Program-made: the position numbers and the translations under genes
Notes under the pieces: model-generated
What the model saw: the letters and a program-made list of their open reading frames with translations, nothing else
The model's database searches: none
What the model was told of the DNA's origin: nothing
Part shown: piece after piece, positions 5,691-41,179 of the stretch
Numbering within the stretch: the stretch's first letter is position 1
Layout of the letters: the number at the start of each line of letters is the position of its first letter
NCBI GenBank assembly: GCA_948441255.1
Contig: CAOJPS010000004.1
Location: forward strand, 1-41,713
Source of the DNA: an uncultured Eubacteriaceae bacterium
GTDB lineage: Bacteria > Bacillota > Clostridia > Lachnospirales > CAG-274
DNA: 41,713 nucleotides
Reading direction: 5' to 3'

Positions 5691-5719
5691 TTGACCTTTT
5701 TTGTATATTGTGTTATAAA
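5691..5719 (+). promoter_or_regulatory. Putative sigma-A promoter TTGACC-N17-TATAAA in the ahcY-purM intergenic region
   Basis: Near-consensus -35/-10 with 17-nt spacer; a hairpin (5727-5758) begins at the predicted start site. Confidence 0.55.
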
Positions 5720-5817
5720 TATATATGTGTCTATTTAATGAATTGGTGAAACAGACGCTTATTTATGAATTAAAATTTTACATATTGTTTTACTGTTAAA
5801 TACTGTTTATTGAAAAA

Positions 5818-6063
5818 TCTTAATTATGCGAAAATAATAAAGAGAATGAACAAGCAAAATTTAATGAGGCTTGATATATTAAGATTTTTTTATTTTGAGC
5901 TAAGGAAATGCCGCATAATTCAAAAAATAAAAATAATTTTAGCGTGAGCTGCAAAAAAATTGAGCAGAAGTGCGAGTTTTTAAACTTGCTTGGAGCGTAT
6001 TTTTTTGCGAAATTATTTTTATTTCCTCTTTGTGCGGTGTTTCCCTGAAAGTTTTGCGAATTG
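5818..6063. repeat. Repeat R copy 1, interrupted by element D (left 5818-5903, right 6045-6063)
   Basis: Aligns by eye with the uninterrupted copy at 22605-22708. Confidence 0.5.
5904..6044. mobile_element. Element D: 141-bp long-hairpin element, ends GGAAATGCC / GGTGTTTCC, flanked by CTAA / CTGA
   Basis: Terminal inverted repeats; internal complementary arms ATAAAAATAATTT / AAATTATTTTTAT; interrupts repeat R. Confidence 0.65.
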
Positions 6064-6088
6064 TTTTAAATTTAAGGAGGATATTTGA

Positions 6089-7114
6089 ATGGACTATAAA
6101 TCGGCAGGCGTTGATGTTGAGGCAGGATATAAATCCGTTGAACTTATGAAAAAATATGTCAAAGGCACTTTTAGAAAGGAAGTTATGACTGATTTGGGAG
6201 GTTTTGGCGGACTTTTTTCAATTGCTAAAGCTAAGGATATGAAAGAGCCGGTTCTTGTTTCTGGTACTGACGGAGTTGGAACAAAGCTTAAGCTTGCTTT
6301 TATAATGAATAAGCACGATACTATTGGTATTGACGCGGTTGCTATGTGTGTTAATGACGTTGTTTGCAGCGGAGCTGAACCTTTGTTTTTTTTGGATTAT
6401 ATTGCCTGCGGTAAAAATTTTCCGGAAAAAATCGCTCTTATTGTTAAGGGAGTAGCTGAGGGCTGCGAACAGGCCGGAGCATCTCTTATTGGAGGGGAAA
6501 CCGCTGAAATGCCAGGATTTTATCCTGCTGATGAATATGACCTTGCTGGTTTTACAGTTGGTATACTTGATAAGGCTAACGTTATTGACGGGAGCGAAAT
6601 TATGGAGGGAGATGTTCTTATAGGAATAGCGTCAAGCGGAATCCATTCAAACGGTTATTCTCTTGTGAGAAAGGTTTTTGATATTTCAGAAGAAACAGTG
6701 CAACAATATTTTGACGAACTTGGATTGACTTTGGGAGAAGCTTTGCTTATTCCTACAAAGATTTATGTTAAATCTGTTTTGGAGCTTATTAAGAATATTA
6801 AGGTTAAAGGTATAAGCCATATTACTGGAGGCGGGTTTGTTGAAAATATTCCGCGAATGCTCCCTGACGGAATAAAGGCGGTTATTAATGAGGGGACTTG
6901 GCCTGTTTTGCCTGTTTTTGAACTTTTGCAGAAAAAGGGAGATATTGATAGAATGTCTATGTATAATACTTTTAATATGGGTATTGGTATGGTTTTGGCA
7001 GTTGATAAGGCCGACGCTGAAAAGACAATTGATATTCTTGAAAAACAGGGGGAAAAGGCTTATATAATTGGAGAAACAGCCAAAGGAGATGGAATTGATA
7101 TATGCTTAAAATAG
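6089..7114 (+). CDS. purM: Phosphoribosylformylglycinamidine cyclo-ligase
   Basis: [63 protein letters not shown]. Confidence 0.97.
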
Positions 7115-21021: not shown

Positions 21022-21834
21022 ATGGAATTAGGCGTACTTATTGGATTTTGTTCAGGTTGGGTGTTTATTTTGCTCTCTATACTTCTGAACGCGGATATGG
21101 ATATAGCGGCGGTGGCTAACTTTGTTGACCCGCCATCGGTTATGATTACTTTGGGAGGTACTATAGCGGCAACTTTGATTTCTCAGCCGCTTCCTAAGGT
21201 TATTACAGCTTTTAAAGCAGTTAAGAATATTATTAAACCTAAAAAGCTTGACCCGGTGGAAGCTATTGCTAAAATTGTTGAACTTGCAGGACTTGCCAGA
21301 AAAGAAGGTATACTTGCTTTGGAAGACGCTTCAAGCGCTATGGAGGATGAATTTTTACAAAAAGGCGTTATGCTTGTTGTTGATGGTACAGACCCGGAAT
21401 TGGTTAGAAGTATTCTTGAAACTGAACTTGCTTATATAGACGGAAGACATAAAGATATTCAGGGTGTTTGGGAATTTATTGCTTCAATGGGTCCTGCCTG
21501 GGGTATGATTGGTACTCTTATCGGTCTGGTTATGATGCTTCAGACTATGAGCGACCCGTCTACTATCGGCGGCAGTATGGCGGTTGCTATTATTACGACA
21601 TTTTATGGTTCTCTTGTGGCAAACTTTATATCAACTCCTATTGCTAATAAAATGAAATCATACAGTAATGATGAAATGCTTATGAAAGAGGTTTTAATTG
21701 AGGGAATTTTATCTATTCAGGCGGGAGAAAATCCACGTATTATTGAAGAAAAACTTAAAGCTTTCTTATCGCCTACTTTGAGAAAAAATGTTGGTGAAGA
21801 TGCCAATAAAGACGCACAGGCTGGTGATGAATAA
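21022..21834 (+). CDS. motA: Flagellar stator protein MotA
   Basis: DPPSVMITLGGTIAATLIS; GPAWGMIGTLIGLVMMLQTMSDPSTIGGSMAVAIITTFYGSLVANF. Confidence 0.97.
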   Translation: MELGVLIGFCSGWVFILLSILLNADMDIAAVANFVDPPSVMITLGGTIAATLISQPLPKVITAFKAVKNIIKPKKLDPVEAIAKIVELAGLARKEGILALEDASSAMEDEFLQKGVMLVVDGTDPELVRSILETELAYIDGRHKDIQGVWEFIASMGPAWGMIGTLIGLVMMLQTMSDPSTIGGSMAVAIITTFYGSLVANFISTPIANKMKSYSNDEMLMKEVLIEGILSIQAGENPRIIEEKLKAFLSPTLRKNVGEDANKDAQAGDE

Positions 21835-22610
21835 TGGCTAAAAAAAAGGAAGAACCAGGAAAAAAAGGTCTTGACGAATGGATGGGTACATACGGCGATA
21901 TGATGACGCTGCTTCTTTGTTTCTTTGTGTTGCTGTTTGCTATGTCAACTATAGATGCCGCTAAATTTGAACAAATCGCCGCGTCTTTTTCTTCAGCTAA
22001 CAGAATAACAATTACTGACTCGGCAAGCACCTCAATCCTTGACGCTCTTGGAAACGGTATTGTTGAGATGCCTATGGTGCAGGGTGACGCTCAGGAAGAA
22101 AATGAGGAACTTGAAAAAGCTACGGAAGAACTTGTTAAAATGGCTTCTGACTTTAAAACATATTTCGCTGAAAACAATTTGCAGGATAAAGTTGAGGTTG
22201 AACAAAACGAACAATATATTACATTAAATTTTAAAGATGGAATTTTGTTTGACAGTGGAAAGGCCGACCTTAAGACAGAAGCGTTGGGAGCTTTGGAAAT
22301 AGTCGCTAACGAACTTGCTAAATATCCAGAGAATGACGTTAAAATTGAAGGTCATGCTGATAATATGCCTATTAATACTCCGAGGTTTCCTAATAACTGG
22401 TATTTGTCAGCAGCGAGAGCGATTTCTGTCGCTATGTATTTTACTGACACAAAAGGATTTTCGCCGGAAAGGATTTCGGCGGAAGGTTTTGGTGAATATA
22501 GACCAAAAGTTCCTAATGATACGCCAGCTAATAGGTCAACTAATCGAAGAGTTGAAATAAAGATATTAAGTAAGTATTTTTCTGATGAAGATAAGCAGAT
22601 GAATTCTTAA
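21834..22610 (+). CDS. motB: Flagellar stator protein MotB (OmpA/MotB C-domain)
   Basis: TYGDMMTLLLCFFVLLFAMS; KIEGHADNMPINTPRFPNNWYLSAARA; NRSTNRRVEI. Confidence 0.97.
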   Translation: MAKKKEEPGKKGLDEWMGTYGDMMTLLLCFFVLLFAMSTIDAAKFEQIAASFSSANRITITDSASTSILDALGNGIVEMPMVQGDAQEENEELEKATEELVKMASDFKTYFAENNLQDKVEVEQNEQYITLNFKDGILFDSGKADLKTEALGALEIVANELAKYPENDVKIEGHADNMPINTPRFPNNWYLSAARAISVAMYFTDTKGFSPERISAEGFGEYRPKVPNDTPANRSTNRRVEIKILSKYFSDEDKQMNS

Positions 22611-22708
22611 TTATAGCTAGATAATAAAAGAGTGAACATAGAAAACTGATAGAACTTAATATACTAAAAGATTCTTTTATTGTTTTGTACTAAAAATTTT
22701 GCGAATTG
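22605..22708. repeat. Repeat R copy 2 (uninterrupted), motB-fliL junction, overlapping the motB stop codon
   Basis: TCTTAATTAT...CTAA/AAATTTTGCGAATTG aligns with 5818-5903 + 6049-6063. Confidence 0.5.
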
Positions 22709-22731
22709 CTATAGAAAGTGAGGGATACAAT

Positions 22732-23217
22732 TTGGAAAAAAATAAAATGATGCTTATTATTATTATTGTTTTACTTGTTATACTGCTTGGTACTATGGCT
22801 TTTGGGGGATATTATCTTGTTTCTTCCTTTAACTCCACAGGAGAAGAACAAACGGAGGAGATTGAAGAAGAAGAGGAAAGCGACAAGAGTACCAATACTC
22901 TTATTGAAATAGGAGATTCTGTTTATACAAACCTCTTGGTTGGAGAAGACAAAAAAGGTCATATTGCTAAAATTAATCTTAATCTTGATGTTAAAGGCGG
23001 CGAGGACGGAAGTGAAGAACTTGTTGCTACGATGAACAGCAGAATTGTTGTTGTGAGAGATATAATAAACAGTATTCTAAGAAAGAAAACTTATGAGGAA
23101 CTTAATAAAGTCGACGGAGTTGAGAATTTTAAGGACGAAGTTTTAGATAAAGTGAGAAAAGAATTTAATTCAAATTTGATTTTAAATGTTTATATAAAAG
23201 AAATTGCTTTACAATAA
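22732..23217 (+). CDS. fliL: Flagellar basal body-associated protein FliL
   Basis: TTG start behind GTGAGGG; single TM, acidic linker, C-terminal RDIINSILRKKTYEEL. Confidence 0.9.
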   Translation: MEKNKMMLIIIIVLLVILLGTMAFGGYYLVSSFNSTGEEQTEEIEEEEESDKSTNTLIEIGDSVYTNLLVGEDKKGHIAKINLNLDVKGGEDGSEELVATMNSRIVVVRDIINSILRKKTYEELNKVDGVENFKDEVLDKVRKEFNSNLILNVYIKEIALQ

Positions 23218-38702: not shown

Positions 38703-38747
38703 GTAATAAAAAAAGTCAGCAAGGTTTAATAGCTGACTTTTTTTATT
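38703..38747. terminator. Bidirectional-looking intrinsic terminator after the fla/che cluster
   Basis: AAAAAAAGTCAGC ... GCTGACTTTTTTTATTTT. Confidence 0.85.
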
Positions 38748-38748
38748 T

Positions 38749-38977
38749 TAACGTGAGTTCGATGAAAATTTATAACTAATGGAACCTTTTTCTATCGAAA
38801 CGGGAACGCTTTCCCGATAAAAAAGGTTCCAAACCTCCAAAAATGCTCTTGAAGCGTTAAAAACCTTGAGGCTCTGCCTCAAACTTCGCTCGCTTTTTGA
38901 AAAAAGCGAGGCAAAAACTTTTGTGCGAAACTACGTTTCGCTGAGTTTCACTGTAATTTTTCGTCGAACTCACGTTA
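38749..38977. mobile_element. Element B: 229-bp MITE-like element, inverted ends TAACGTGAGTTCGAYGAAAA, shares core (reverse orientation) with element A
   Basis: ~22-bp near-perfect inverted ends with TA at both boundaries; internal hairpins incl. GGAACCTTTTT/AAAAAGGTTCC (38781-38830). Confidence 0.7.
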
Positions 38978-38982
38978 AATAT

Positions 38983-39969
38983 CTATTTTTTTATAGCTAA
39001 AGTTATCGTTTTAGTAACGCTGTTAAATACGGTATCTGTGTCAAAAGCCTCACTTAGCGCACTAAGCGGAATAAAAGTTTTGCCATTATATATTTCAGCG
39101 GGTATATCAAGAGTATAAATTTTATCATTTATATTATATTGAGTTTTGCCGATTACAAATTTAACAGTATTATCGCCTTTCTTTACGTAAGCCGCTCTTT
39201 CGCTGCTGTCCCATTTTACTATTGTACAGCCTATAAGCTCCGTTATATTCCTTAAAGGTACAAGAAGTTTGTTGTTTTTATTTACCGCGCCAAATTTAAC
39301 AGCGTTTTTTTGTATTATTGTGCTGTTATTTTTTTCCGCGTTTTCAAGAATTATTCTTTCATTGTCCATTTGAGAATTTATAAAAGACGTTATAGAAGAT
39401 GTATCAATTACAGATTCCATTATATTAACAACTTTTGTTTCTTTATCTTCGTATGGAACATCATAATCGATAGGAGAATCTTTAGAGTCGGGCTGAATCA
39501 TTACAACGTCATTATCTGAAACAGCAACCGCGTTAAAATTTTTGTCTATTATAATGGAGTAAGGGTTTCCATTACTTAGCTGAAACTGAGTTAAATTCTT
39601 ATTAAGCCATTTACTTGATTCCCAACTTGGACCTGTTTCTGTAATATAATTTGAAATATAATTTACAATTTTACCATTATTGATTATAGGATAATAAAAA
39701 ATATATATATTTTCTTTATCGGCTCCCCCTTCCTGATATTCCATAGAAAAAGGAGTTCCTATTGATGAACCGCTTTCAAAGCCCATCCTTATAAGGAAAT
39801 CATAAGAATTGGGATTATCAGAAACTTGTTCTTTAAAAATTTTAATCGCTTCTGAATTGTCAATAGTTTTAACTAATATCTCATTTTCCGCACTTTCAGC
39901 AAATAAAGATGTGGAATATCCTATTGTAAATATAACGGCAAAAAATAAAAAACAAAAAATTTTTTTCAT
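38983..39969 (-). CDS. Secreted protein with C-terminal copper-amine-oxidase-N-like (stalk) domain
   Basis: Signal peptide MKKIFCFLFFAVIFTIGYSTSLFAESA; LLVPLRNITELIGCTIVKWDSSERAAYVKKGDNTVKFVIGKTQYNINDK...GKTFIPLSALSEAFD. Confidence 0.85.
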   Translation of the reverse strand: MKKIFCFLFFAVIFTIGYSTSLFAESAENEILVKTIDNSEAIKIFKEQVSDNPNSYDFLIRMGFESGSSIGTPFSMEYQEGGADKENIYIFYYPIINNGKIVNYISNYITETGPSWESSKWLNKNLTQFQLSNGNPYSIIIDKNFNAVAVSDNDVVMIQPDSKDSPIDYDVPYEDKETKVVNIMESVIDTSSITSFINSQMDNERIILENAEKNNSTIIQKNAVKFGAVNKNNKLLVPLRNITELIGCTIVKWDSSERAAYVKKGDNTVKFVIGKTQYNINDKIYTLDIPAEIYNGKTFIPLSALSEAFDTDTVFNSVTKTITLAIKK

Positions 39970-39997
39970 AGTTACACCACCTTTTTATATCATTTGA

Positions 39998-40137
39998 TAT
40001 AGTGAAAGAACTTAAAAAGAAGTAAAAAAATTTATTTTACTCAAAAGTCTGCGAAGTGCTTCACAATTCGCTTACTGACTTTTGCCGCAGGCGGACGTAA
40101 AATATTTTTTTACCGTTATTCAAGTTCTTTCACTATA
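39998..40137. mobile_element. Element E: 140-bp palindromic element, perfect 16-bp ends TATAGTGAAAGAACTT / AAGTTCTTTCACTATA
   Basis: Perfect terminal inverted repeat plus nested inner arms (GTAAAAAAAT.., CAAAAGTC/GACTTTTG, GCGAA/TTCGC). Confidence 0.75.
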
Positions 40138-40138
40138 T

Positions 40139-40239
40139 ATTAGACTTCTTTCGAAACTTCATATCTATACTAATATCGACCCAAGAAAATATTTTCTTAT
40201 TGAACTAACGTAATTTTATAGTTTCGAAAGAAGTCTAAT
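40139..40239. mobile_element. Element F: 101-bp MITE-like element, perfect 20-bp ends ATTAGACTTCTTTCGAAACT / AGTTTCGAAAGAAGTCTAAT, TA boundaries
   Basis: Perfect inverted ends; overlaps 3' end of the CDS at 40235-41179. Confidence 0.75.
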
Positions 40240-41179
40240 AACTTAAAGTTATCATTTTAGTAGCGCTGTTATACGCAATATCAGCGTCAAAGGCTTCACT
40301 TACCGCACGAAGAGGAATAAAAGTTTTACCATTATATATTTCAGCTGGCACGTCAAGATTATAAACTTTATCATTTACACTATATTGAATTTTGCCGATT
40401 ACAAATTTAACAGTATTATCGCCTTTCTTTGCGTAAGCCGCTCTTTCGGCGCTGTCCCATTCTACCGTGCAGCCTATAAGTTCGGCTATATTTCTTAGAG
40501 GTATAAGGAGTCGGTCGTTTTTATTTATTACGCCAAGTTCATCGGCATTCCGCTGTGATATCGCACGTCTGCCTTTTTTTCGAGCGTTTTCAAAAATCGC
40601 TCTTTCGTCGTCTACTTCGGGAGTTAAAAAAGACTTATCAATATCAATAGGTTCCATTATATTAACAATCTTCGTTTCTTTACCCTCATATGGAGTATTA
40701 TAATCGATAAGATAACCAGGGTCAGAGCGAAGTATTATAACATCATTATCTGAAACAGCAAGCTCATTAATATTTTTGTCATGTATAATAGCGTAAGCGT
40801 TTCCGTTACTAAGCTGAGTTAAATCACTTTCATCGCTAAACCATTCAGATACTGCCCAGCCCGCAAATTCACCTTCCATAATTCTCTGCTCAACATAACT
40901 TACAATTTCACCATTCCTAATTATAGGAAAATAGAATAAATATAATGGATAGGGATCAGTACTTTGAAATTCTACGGAAAAGGGTGTTCCTATTGATGAA
41001 TCAGTACCAAAGCCATGTCTTACAAGCATATTATAATCATCAGGAAGTATTTCTTTAAAAATTTTAATTGCTTCTGTATTATCAATAGTTTTAATTAATA
41101 TTTCATTTCCTTCAGCAAATAAGTTTATAGGATATCCAAATGTAAATATTATAATAAATAATAAAAAAATTTTTTTCAA
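40235..41179 (-). CDS. Secreted protein with C-terminal copper-amine-oxidase-N-like (stalk) domain, paralogue of 38983-39969
   Basis: TTG start behind AGGAGG; signal peptide MKKIFLLFIIIFTFGYPINLFAEG; shared IDNxEAIKIFKE... and LLIPLRNIAELIGCTVEWDSAERAAYAKKGDNTVKFVIGK. Confidence 0.85.
   Translation of the reverse strand: MKKIFLLFIIIFTFGYPINLFAEGNEILIKTIDNTEAIKIFKEILPDDYNMLVRHGFGTDSSIGTPFSVEFQSTDPYPLYLFYFPIIRNGEIVSYVEQRIMEGEFAGWAVSEWFSDESDLTQLSNGNAYAIIHDKNINELAVSDNDVIILRSDPGYLIDYNTPYEGKETKIVNIMEPIDIDKSFLTPEVDDERAIFENARKKGRRAISQRNADELGVINKNDRLLIPLRNIAELIGCTVEWDSAERAAYAKKGDNTVKFVIGKIQYSVNDKVYNLDVPAEIYNGKTFIPLRAVSEAFDADIAYNSATKMITLSY

Follow-up and report, generated by a model that had tools for sequence, protein, structure and literature searches.

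The purM leader and the motB-fliL spacer

The sequence analysed here, which we call the window, is a stretch of 41,713 nucleotides from an uncultured Eubacteriaceae bacterium of the Clostridia. Two of its intergenic regions, one upstream of purM and the other between motB and fliL, carry copies of a repeat, R, of which the purM copy is interrupted by a second element, D (Table 1). The nested elements are located between a promoter-like TTGACC-17-TATAAA site, which a scan with a simple pattern missed, and the ribosome-binding site of purM, close to the latter and in what is presumably the 5' leader of the gene. Between motB and fliL, R ends directly before a purine-rich stretch, GAAAGTGAGGG, which precedes the presumed TTG start of fliL.

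Table 1. Genes and repeat elements of the purM and motB-fliL regions (positions in the window).
Feature	Position	Strand	Basis and remarks
Promoter-like TTGACC-17-TATAAA upstream of purM	5691..5719	+	direct reading; position conserved in G001 and G003; function putative
R element, left part (TATGCG... to ...GAGCTAA), interrupted by D	5825..5903	+	alignment; covariance match 5825-5923, 53.7 bits
Left copy of D target duplication, CTAA, ancestral word in R	5900..5903	+	
D, 141-bp MITE, IS5-type ends GGAAATGCCGCATAA / TTGTGCGGTGTTTCC, one long hairpin, no coding capacity	5904..6044	+	
Right copy of D target duplication, CTGA, one change from CTAA	6045..6048	+	
R element, right part (AAGTTTTGCGAATTGTTTTA)	6049..6068	+	
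purM, phosphoribosylformylglycinamidine cyclo-ligase; leader holds R and D	6089..7114	+	ORF; orthologues 77-89% identical in relatives
motB	21834..22610	+	ORF; orthologues in G001-G005; last codon and stop give TCTTAA of TCTTAATTA
R, uninterrupted, between motB and fliL (TATAGC...GCTATA)	22612..22713	+	99.1 bits, full model 1-103; absent here from G001-G005
fliL, presumed TTG start	22732..23217	+	start predicted from conservation with G001

An interrupted repeat upstream of purM

A sequence-only reading of the window had proposed that D interrupts a repeat whose intact copy lies at 22605-22708, and all sequences that it quoted are present where it had placed them. The comparison with shuffles that it suggested bears this out: positions 5818-5903 and 6049-6063, joined, align to 22605-22708 with a score of 81, whereas dinucleotide shuffles had a mean of 20.5 and a maximum of 38, and none of 2000 reached 81 (Z = 17.5). 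The best other 101-mer in the window scored 40, and with D left in place the score dropped to 56.5. Judged by the joined sequence and by both the shuffle and the window controls, the interruption of a repeat by D is thus well above chance.

Both R stretches are about three quarters A+T and their common first nine bases are partly coincidental, which might suggest that their likeness is a chance match of A+T-rich sequence. The earlier claim that both copies begin TCTTAATTA is correct as to the letters, but between motB and fliL the first nine bases belong to motB and not to R: here TCTTAATTA is the 3' end of motB, and the related genome G001 has the same letters (GAATTCTTAATTA) without R. Yet even when the common first ten bases were left out, no shuffle among 2000 scored as high (Z = 16.1), and the covariance model of R (see below) detects the repeat dozens of times in the genus, against next to none in two other genera. 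The probability of a chance match is therefore practically negligible.

R at purM extends from ~5825 to ~6068, with D within it. D is flanked exactly by CTAA and CTGA, an imperfect target duplication in which three of four bases match. Since the R family holds CTAA at the point of insertion (..ACTAAAAATTTTGCG..), CTAA is the ancestral word and CTGA the changed side; since CTAA is also a normal target of the D family, the pair fits a duplication followed by one later change, as had been supposed.

The D family

The D copy in the window folds as a single hairpin (DNA z = −6.7) and has no coding capacity; its inverted ends, noted before, belong to a long inverted repeat. The draft genome to which it belongs (2.62 Mb, 282 contigs) contains 48 matches to D, 23 of them near full length. 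The D end pattern (GGAAAYRYCGNAYAA, at most one mismatch) occurs 469 times, as against 23 occurrences of the reversed control pattern. Of 79 pairs of inward-facing ends lying within 260 bp of each other, 34 carry exact 4-bp duplications; a control offset gave 2 among the same 79. TTAA, TTTA, TATA, CTAA and TTAG make up most of the duplicated words, with the consensus YTWR, which agrees with the YTAR target of IS5 elements and is slightly looser. D-type ends bound several length classes (~46-62, 118, 140/141, 157 and 171 bp), and D occurs alone, with its own 4-bp duplications, at many places. ORFs around the D copies at the first loci are ordinary genes, with no transposase among them. With short, non-coding, dispersed copies, terminal inverted repeats and a target duplication of constant length, D is a MITE.

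A 55-bp element with D-type ends (GGAAACACCGTATAATTC...CCTTTGTGTGGTGTTTCC) and degenerate flanks, at 1642-1696 of the window, falls into the short D length class. Three contigs of the draft genome (G000:C29, C80 and C138) end in or within ~60 bp of D copies (L020, L024 and L002), which suggests that such repeats fragment the assembly.

Fragments of IS5-family transposases are present in the same genome (NF033581 above cut-off; also PF01609 and PF05598). One of these, truncated C-terminally and located in an apparent fic gene, ends at GGAAACACCGCATAATA beside TTAA, and some 140-bp MITEs match this end over 18 of 18 bases. Another IS5-family copy begins inside GGCAATACCGCACAATA and is itself inserted into a D-like MITE. 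As expected of an IS5-derived MITE, D thus has its ends in common with an IS5-family element of its genome (GGAAACACCGCATAATA, GGCAATACCGCACAATA). D and the IS5-family copies have only the terminal 15-18 bases in common. We therefore reject an origin of D by simple internal deletion of the copies seen and regard it as a MITE with IS5-type ends. The draft genome yielded no intact IS5 element with D-type ends but only fragments, some of them at contig ends. From the common ends, an IS5-family transposase is a plausible mobiliser of D. Among other candidates, an IS1182-type transposase (PF13751, one copy) lacks D ends, as does an IS5-like gene in G015 (48% identical), and the remaining PF01609 matches (L151, L153-L155) have no D ends at a fitting place. 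At L187 (G000:C262, ~1029-1200), where an IS5-family element lies within a D-like MITE, the genome has its second example of nesting.

The R family

A covariance model built from six copies finds 39 R copies in this genome. Of three congeners, one has 34 and the others have at least 144 and 101, lower bounds from a search that scores no more than 150 candidates per genome; two other genera of the family have 0 and 1. R copies are ~102 bp long (TATAGC...GCTATA, with the ends TATAG/CTATA) and many of them occur without D. A pyrimidine (Y) precedes R in 29 of 31 copies, and a purine (R in the base code) follows it in 28 of 31. These symmetric flanks around the TA ends fit a duplicated TA within Y-TA-R, and one clean filled/empty pair is also in agreement, so that R may duplicate TA on insertion. 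The sequence-only reading had defined R as a second repeat family; the family is real, yet it is not a static repeat. Its copies are dispersed and non-coding, have the same ends and are polymorphic in their insertion sites, which makes R a mobile family as well, and a MITE.

R copies have a 17-pair stem and the terminal five pairs in common, with pairing kept in 95% of cells, and two-sided changes in the stem exceed those in shuffles and in slid controls. The 3' arm carries ~21 extra conserved bases, which make it asymmetric. Such conservation, and the location of copies in operon spacers, could indicate that only D is a transposon, whereas R would be a functional RNA or a site of protein binding that is conserved and owes its spread to recombination or selection. 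We regard this as very improbable: the ends of R are sharp and common to its copies, its target is symmetric (Y-TA-R), it is present or absent in a lineage-specific manner within colinear flanks, and its copy number differs between congeners. Moreover, the kept pairing can reflect subfamilies that spread as whole copies.

As a mobile element, R was presumably moved by some DDE transposase, and an IS630-like enzyme would be our guess. A genome search for an IS630-type partner (PF13358) gave one decayed fragment (G000), which lacks R ends.

Further repeats in the window

Near the end of the window, an inverted repeat of ~142 bp (TATAGTGAAAGAACTT.../...CAAGTTCTTTCACTATA, 39997-40138) represents another TATAG-ended family, with a weak match to the R model (24.6 bits); members also lie next to D and R copies elsewhere (e.g. 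L015, L017, L039). It is followed by a 103-bp element with perfect 21-bp inverted ends (TATTAGACTTCTTTCGAAACT, 40138-40240), which flanks an R copy in L032 and has dozens of matches in three congeners. These repeat elements separate two similar neighboring genes on the minus strand (38983-39969 and 40235-41179), which are 72-87% identical in nucleotide sequence over several blocks and probably arose by tandem duplication. A further element, at 38747-38979, is bounded by TTTAACGTGAGTTCGATGAAAATTTA / TAATTTTTCGTCGAACTCACGTTAAA; an 80-bp stretch inside it recurs inverted at 2644-2723 (93%), and the ends of the element resemble the ACGTSAGTTCGA ends of ISPg3 and MITE700 (PMC4596501).

Empty sites in related genomes

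Contig G001:C341 is syntenic with window positions 4243-38635 at ~83% identity, with gaps at 5810-6071 and 22617-22719. Its purM leader runs colinear with that of the window as far as ...TTAAATACTG and resumes at the ribosome-binding site, so that it lacks R, D and a few flanking bases. The purM leader of G003 is without R and D, and neither was seen in G002, whose contig begins 123 bp upstream of purM. At motB-fliL, G001 reads GAATTCTTAATTA directly followed by GAGTAGGAGGGATA where the window carries R, and the spacers of G002 to G005 are short and without R. As the congener sites are empty, both R insertions are specific to this lineage within the set of genomes compared; D came later, into the copy at purM. 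The motB-fliL copy, which had been taken for an empty site, is indeed an uninterrupted R, but it is a separate insertion absent from G001 and not the ancestral empty site.

When flanks were joined and used to look for additional empty sites, D was absent from alignable orthologous spacers in congeners, although divergence blurred most junctions; the cleanest junction is that of L060, where the colinearity of G001 extends as far as the point of insertion. The purM leaders of named relatives from other genera are unrelated and thus uninformative on the insertion. The named sequences closest to the purM of this Clostridia group come from rumen and gut MAGs.

The transposition of D into R with a 4-bp duplication, as first read from the letters alone, is supported independently by the exact 4-bp duplications of other D copies, by the many R copies that lack D and by the purM leader of G001, which has neither element. 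An alignment no better than shuffles, or the presence of D at all orthologous loci, had been named as grounds for abandoning it; instead, the alignment exceeds the shuffles and sites without D exist.

These sites also bear on whether purM ancestrally had a longer regulatory leader (an attenuator or RNA switch) that comprised both D and R, with the middle lost from the motB-fliL copy. The two do occur together ahead of purM, and D as well as R forms stable stems. However, D is found alone elsewhere with duplications of its own, R is found without D, congeners lack the whole stretch at purM, and an Rfam search of the window gave no match above the gathering score. A common ancestral leader is therefore exceedingly improbable.

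A nested pair of transposons

We consider it very probable that two unrelated non-autonomous DNA transposons (MITEs), R and then D, are nested at purM. Directly observed are the two repeat families with their filled and empty sites, the duplications of 4 bp that accompany D, and the ends that D has in common with an IS5-family transposase gene. In the proposed history, R, a ~102-bp hairpin with TATAG/CTATA ends and a Y-TA-R target, would have inserted into the purM leader and a separate copy between motB and fliL, both after the split from the congeners. D, a 141-bp hairpin with the IS5-type ends GGAAAYRCCGCAYAA, would then have entered the purM copy at CTAA, producing a 4-bp duplication, one side of which would later have changed to CTGA. 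As close relatives lack both insertions at purM, this is a clear but ordinary nesting of small bacterial transposons.

Given the position downstream of the promoter-like site, the purM transcript probably carries two nested hairpins in its leader. Both purM and fliL are presumably still expressed, and the simplest reading of the nested elements is that they are tolerated passenger DNA. A more far-reaching proposal starts from R being genus-wide and stem-conserved with an asymmetric 3' tail: R would insert beside the ribosome-binding sites of operons and act on mRNA processing or stability, and R and D together would form a transposon-built regulatory leader of purM. This seems unlikely to us.

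Comparison with known bacterial MITEs

Judged by Rfam and by a limited literature search, which found no coverage of this uncultured Clostridia group, the D and R families appear to be undescribed. They provide two heavily amplified MITE families in one uncultured genus, for which an order of insertion (R first, D second), both filled and empty sites and, in the case of D, a plausible mobiliser of the IS5 family can be given. This is of use for annotation, as core genes have these elements in their leaders and a number of draft contigs stop within or close to them, and it offers a natural system for MITE dynamics, while leaving the general view of bacterial transposons unchanged. At such copy numbers, nesting of MITEs is to be expected.

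The closest counterparts of R are RUP of Streptococcus pneumoniae and the Correia/NEMIS elements of Neisseria, which are bacterial MITEs of ~100 bp with TA ends (PMC2229807). R resembles them in its length, its terminal inverted repeats with TA at the ends, its TA-containing targets, its location mostly in spacers and its up to 100 or more copies per genome. It differs in its own sequence and in the asymmetric stem with the ~21 additional conserved bases in the 3' arm. For an element of the RUP or Correia type, an IS630-type autonomous partner with the same ends would be expected; for R none was identified, the decayed PF13358 fragment being without R ends. R works like RUP and Correia, but we do not file it as either.

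D, in turn, is comparable to the IS5 group of the IS5 family, which generates YTAR target duplications (PMC10359306): its own 4-bp duplications are close to YTAR, and D-type ends bound an IS5-family transposase fragment (NF033581). In contrast to that group, D has no transposase, and only its terminal 15-18 bp are common to the IS copies seen. MITEs with IS5-family ends common to ISPg elements have been described in Porphyromonas gingivalis (PMC4596501). D is set apart from these by the sequence of its ends, a long internal hairpin, the occurrence of several length classes and a 4-bp YTWR duplication, but is like them in being short, A+T-rich, non-coding and of high copy number, with short target duplications and inverted ends common to an IS5-family element of the same genome.
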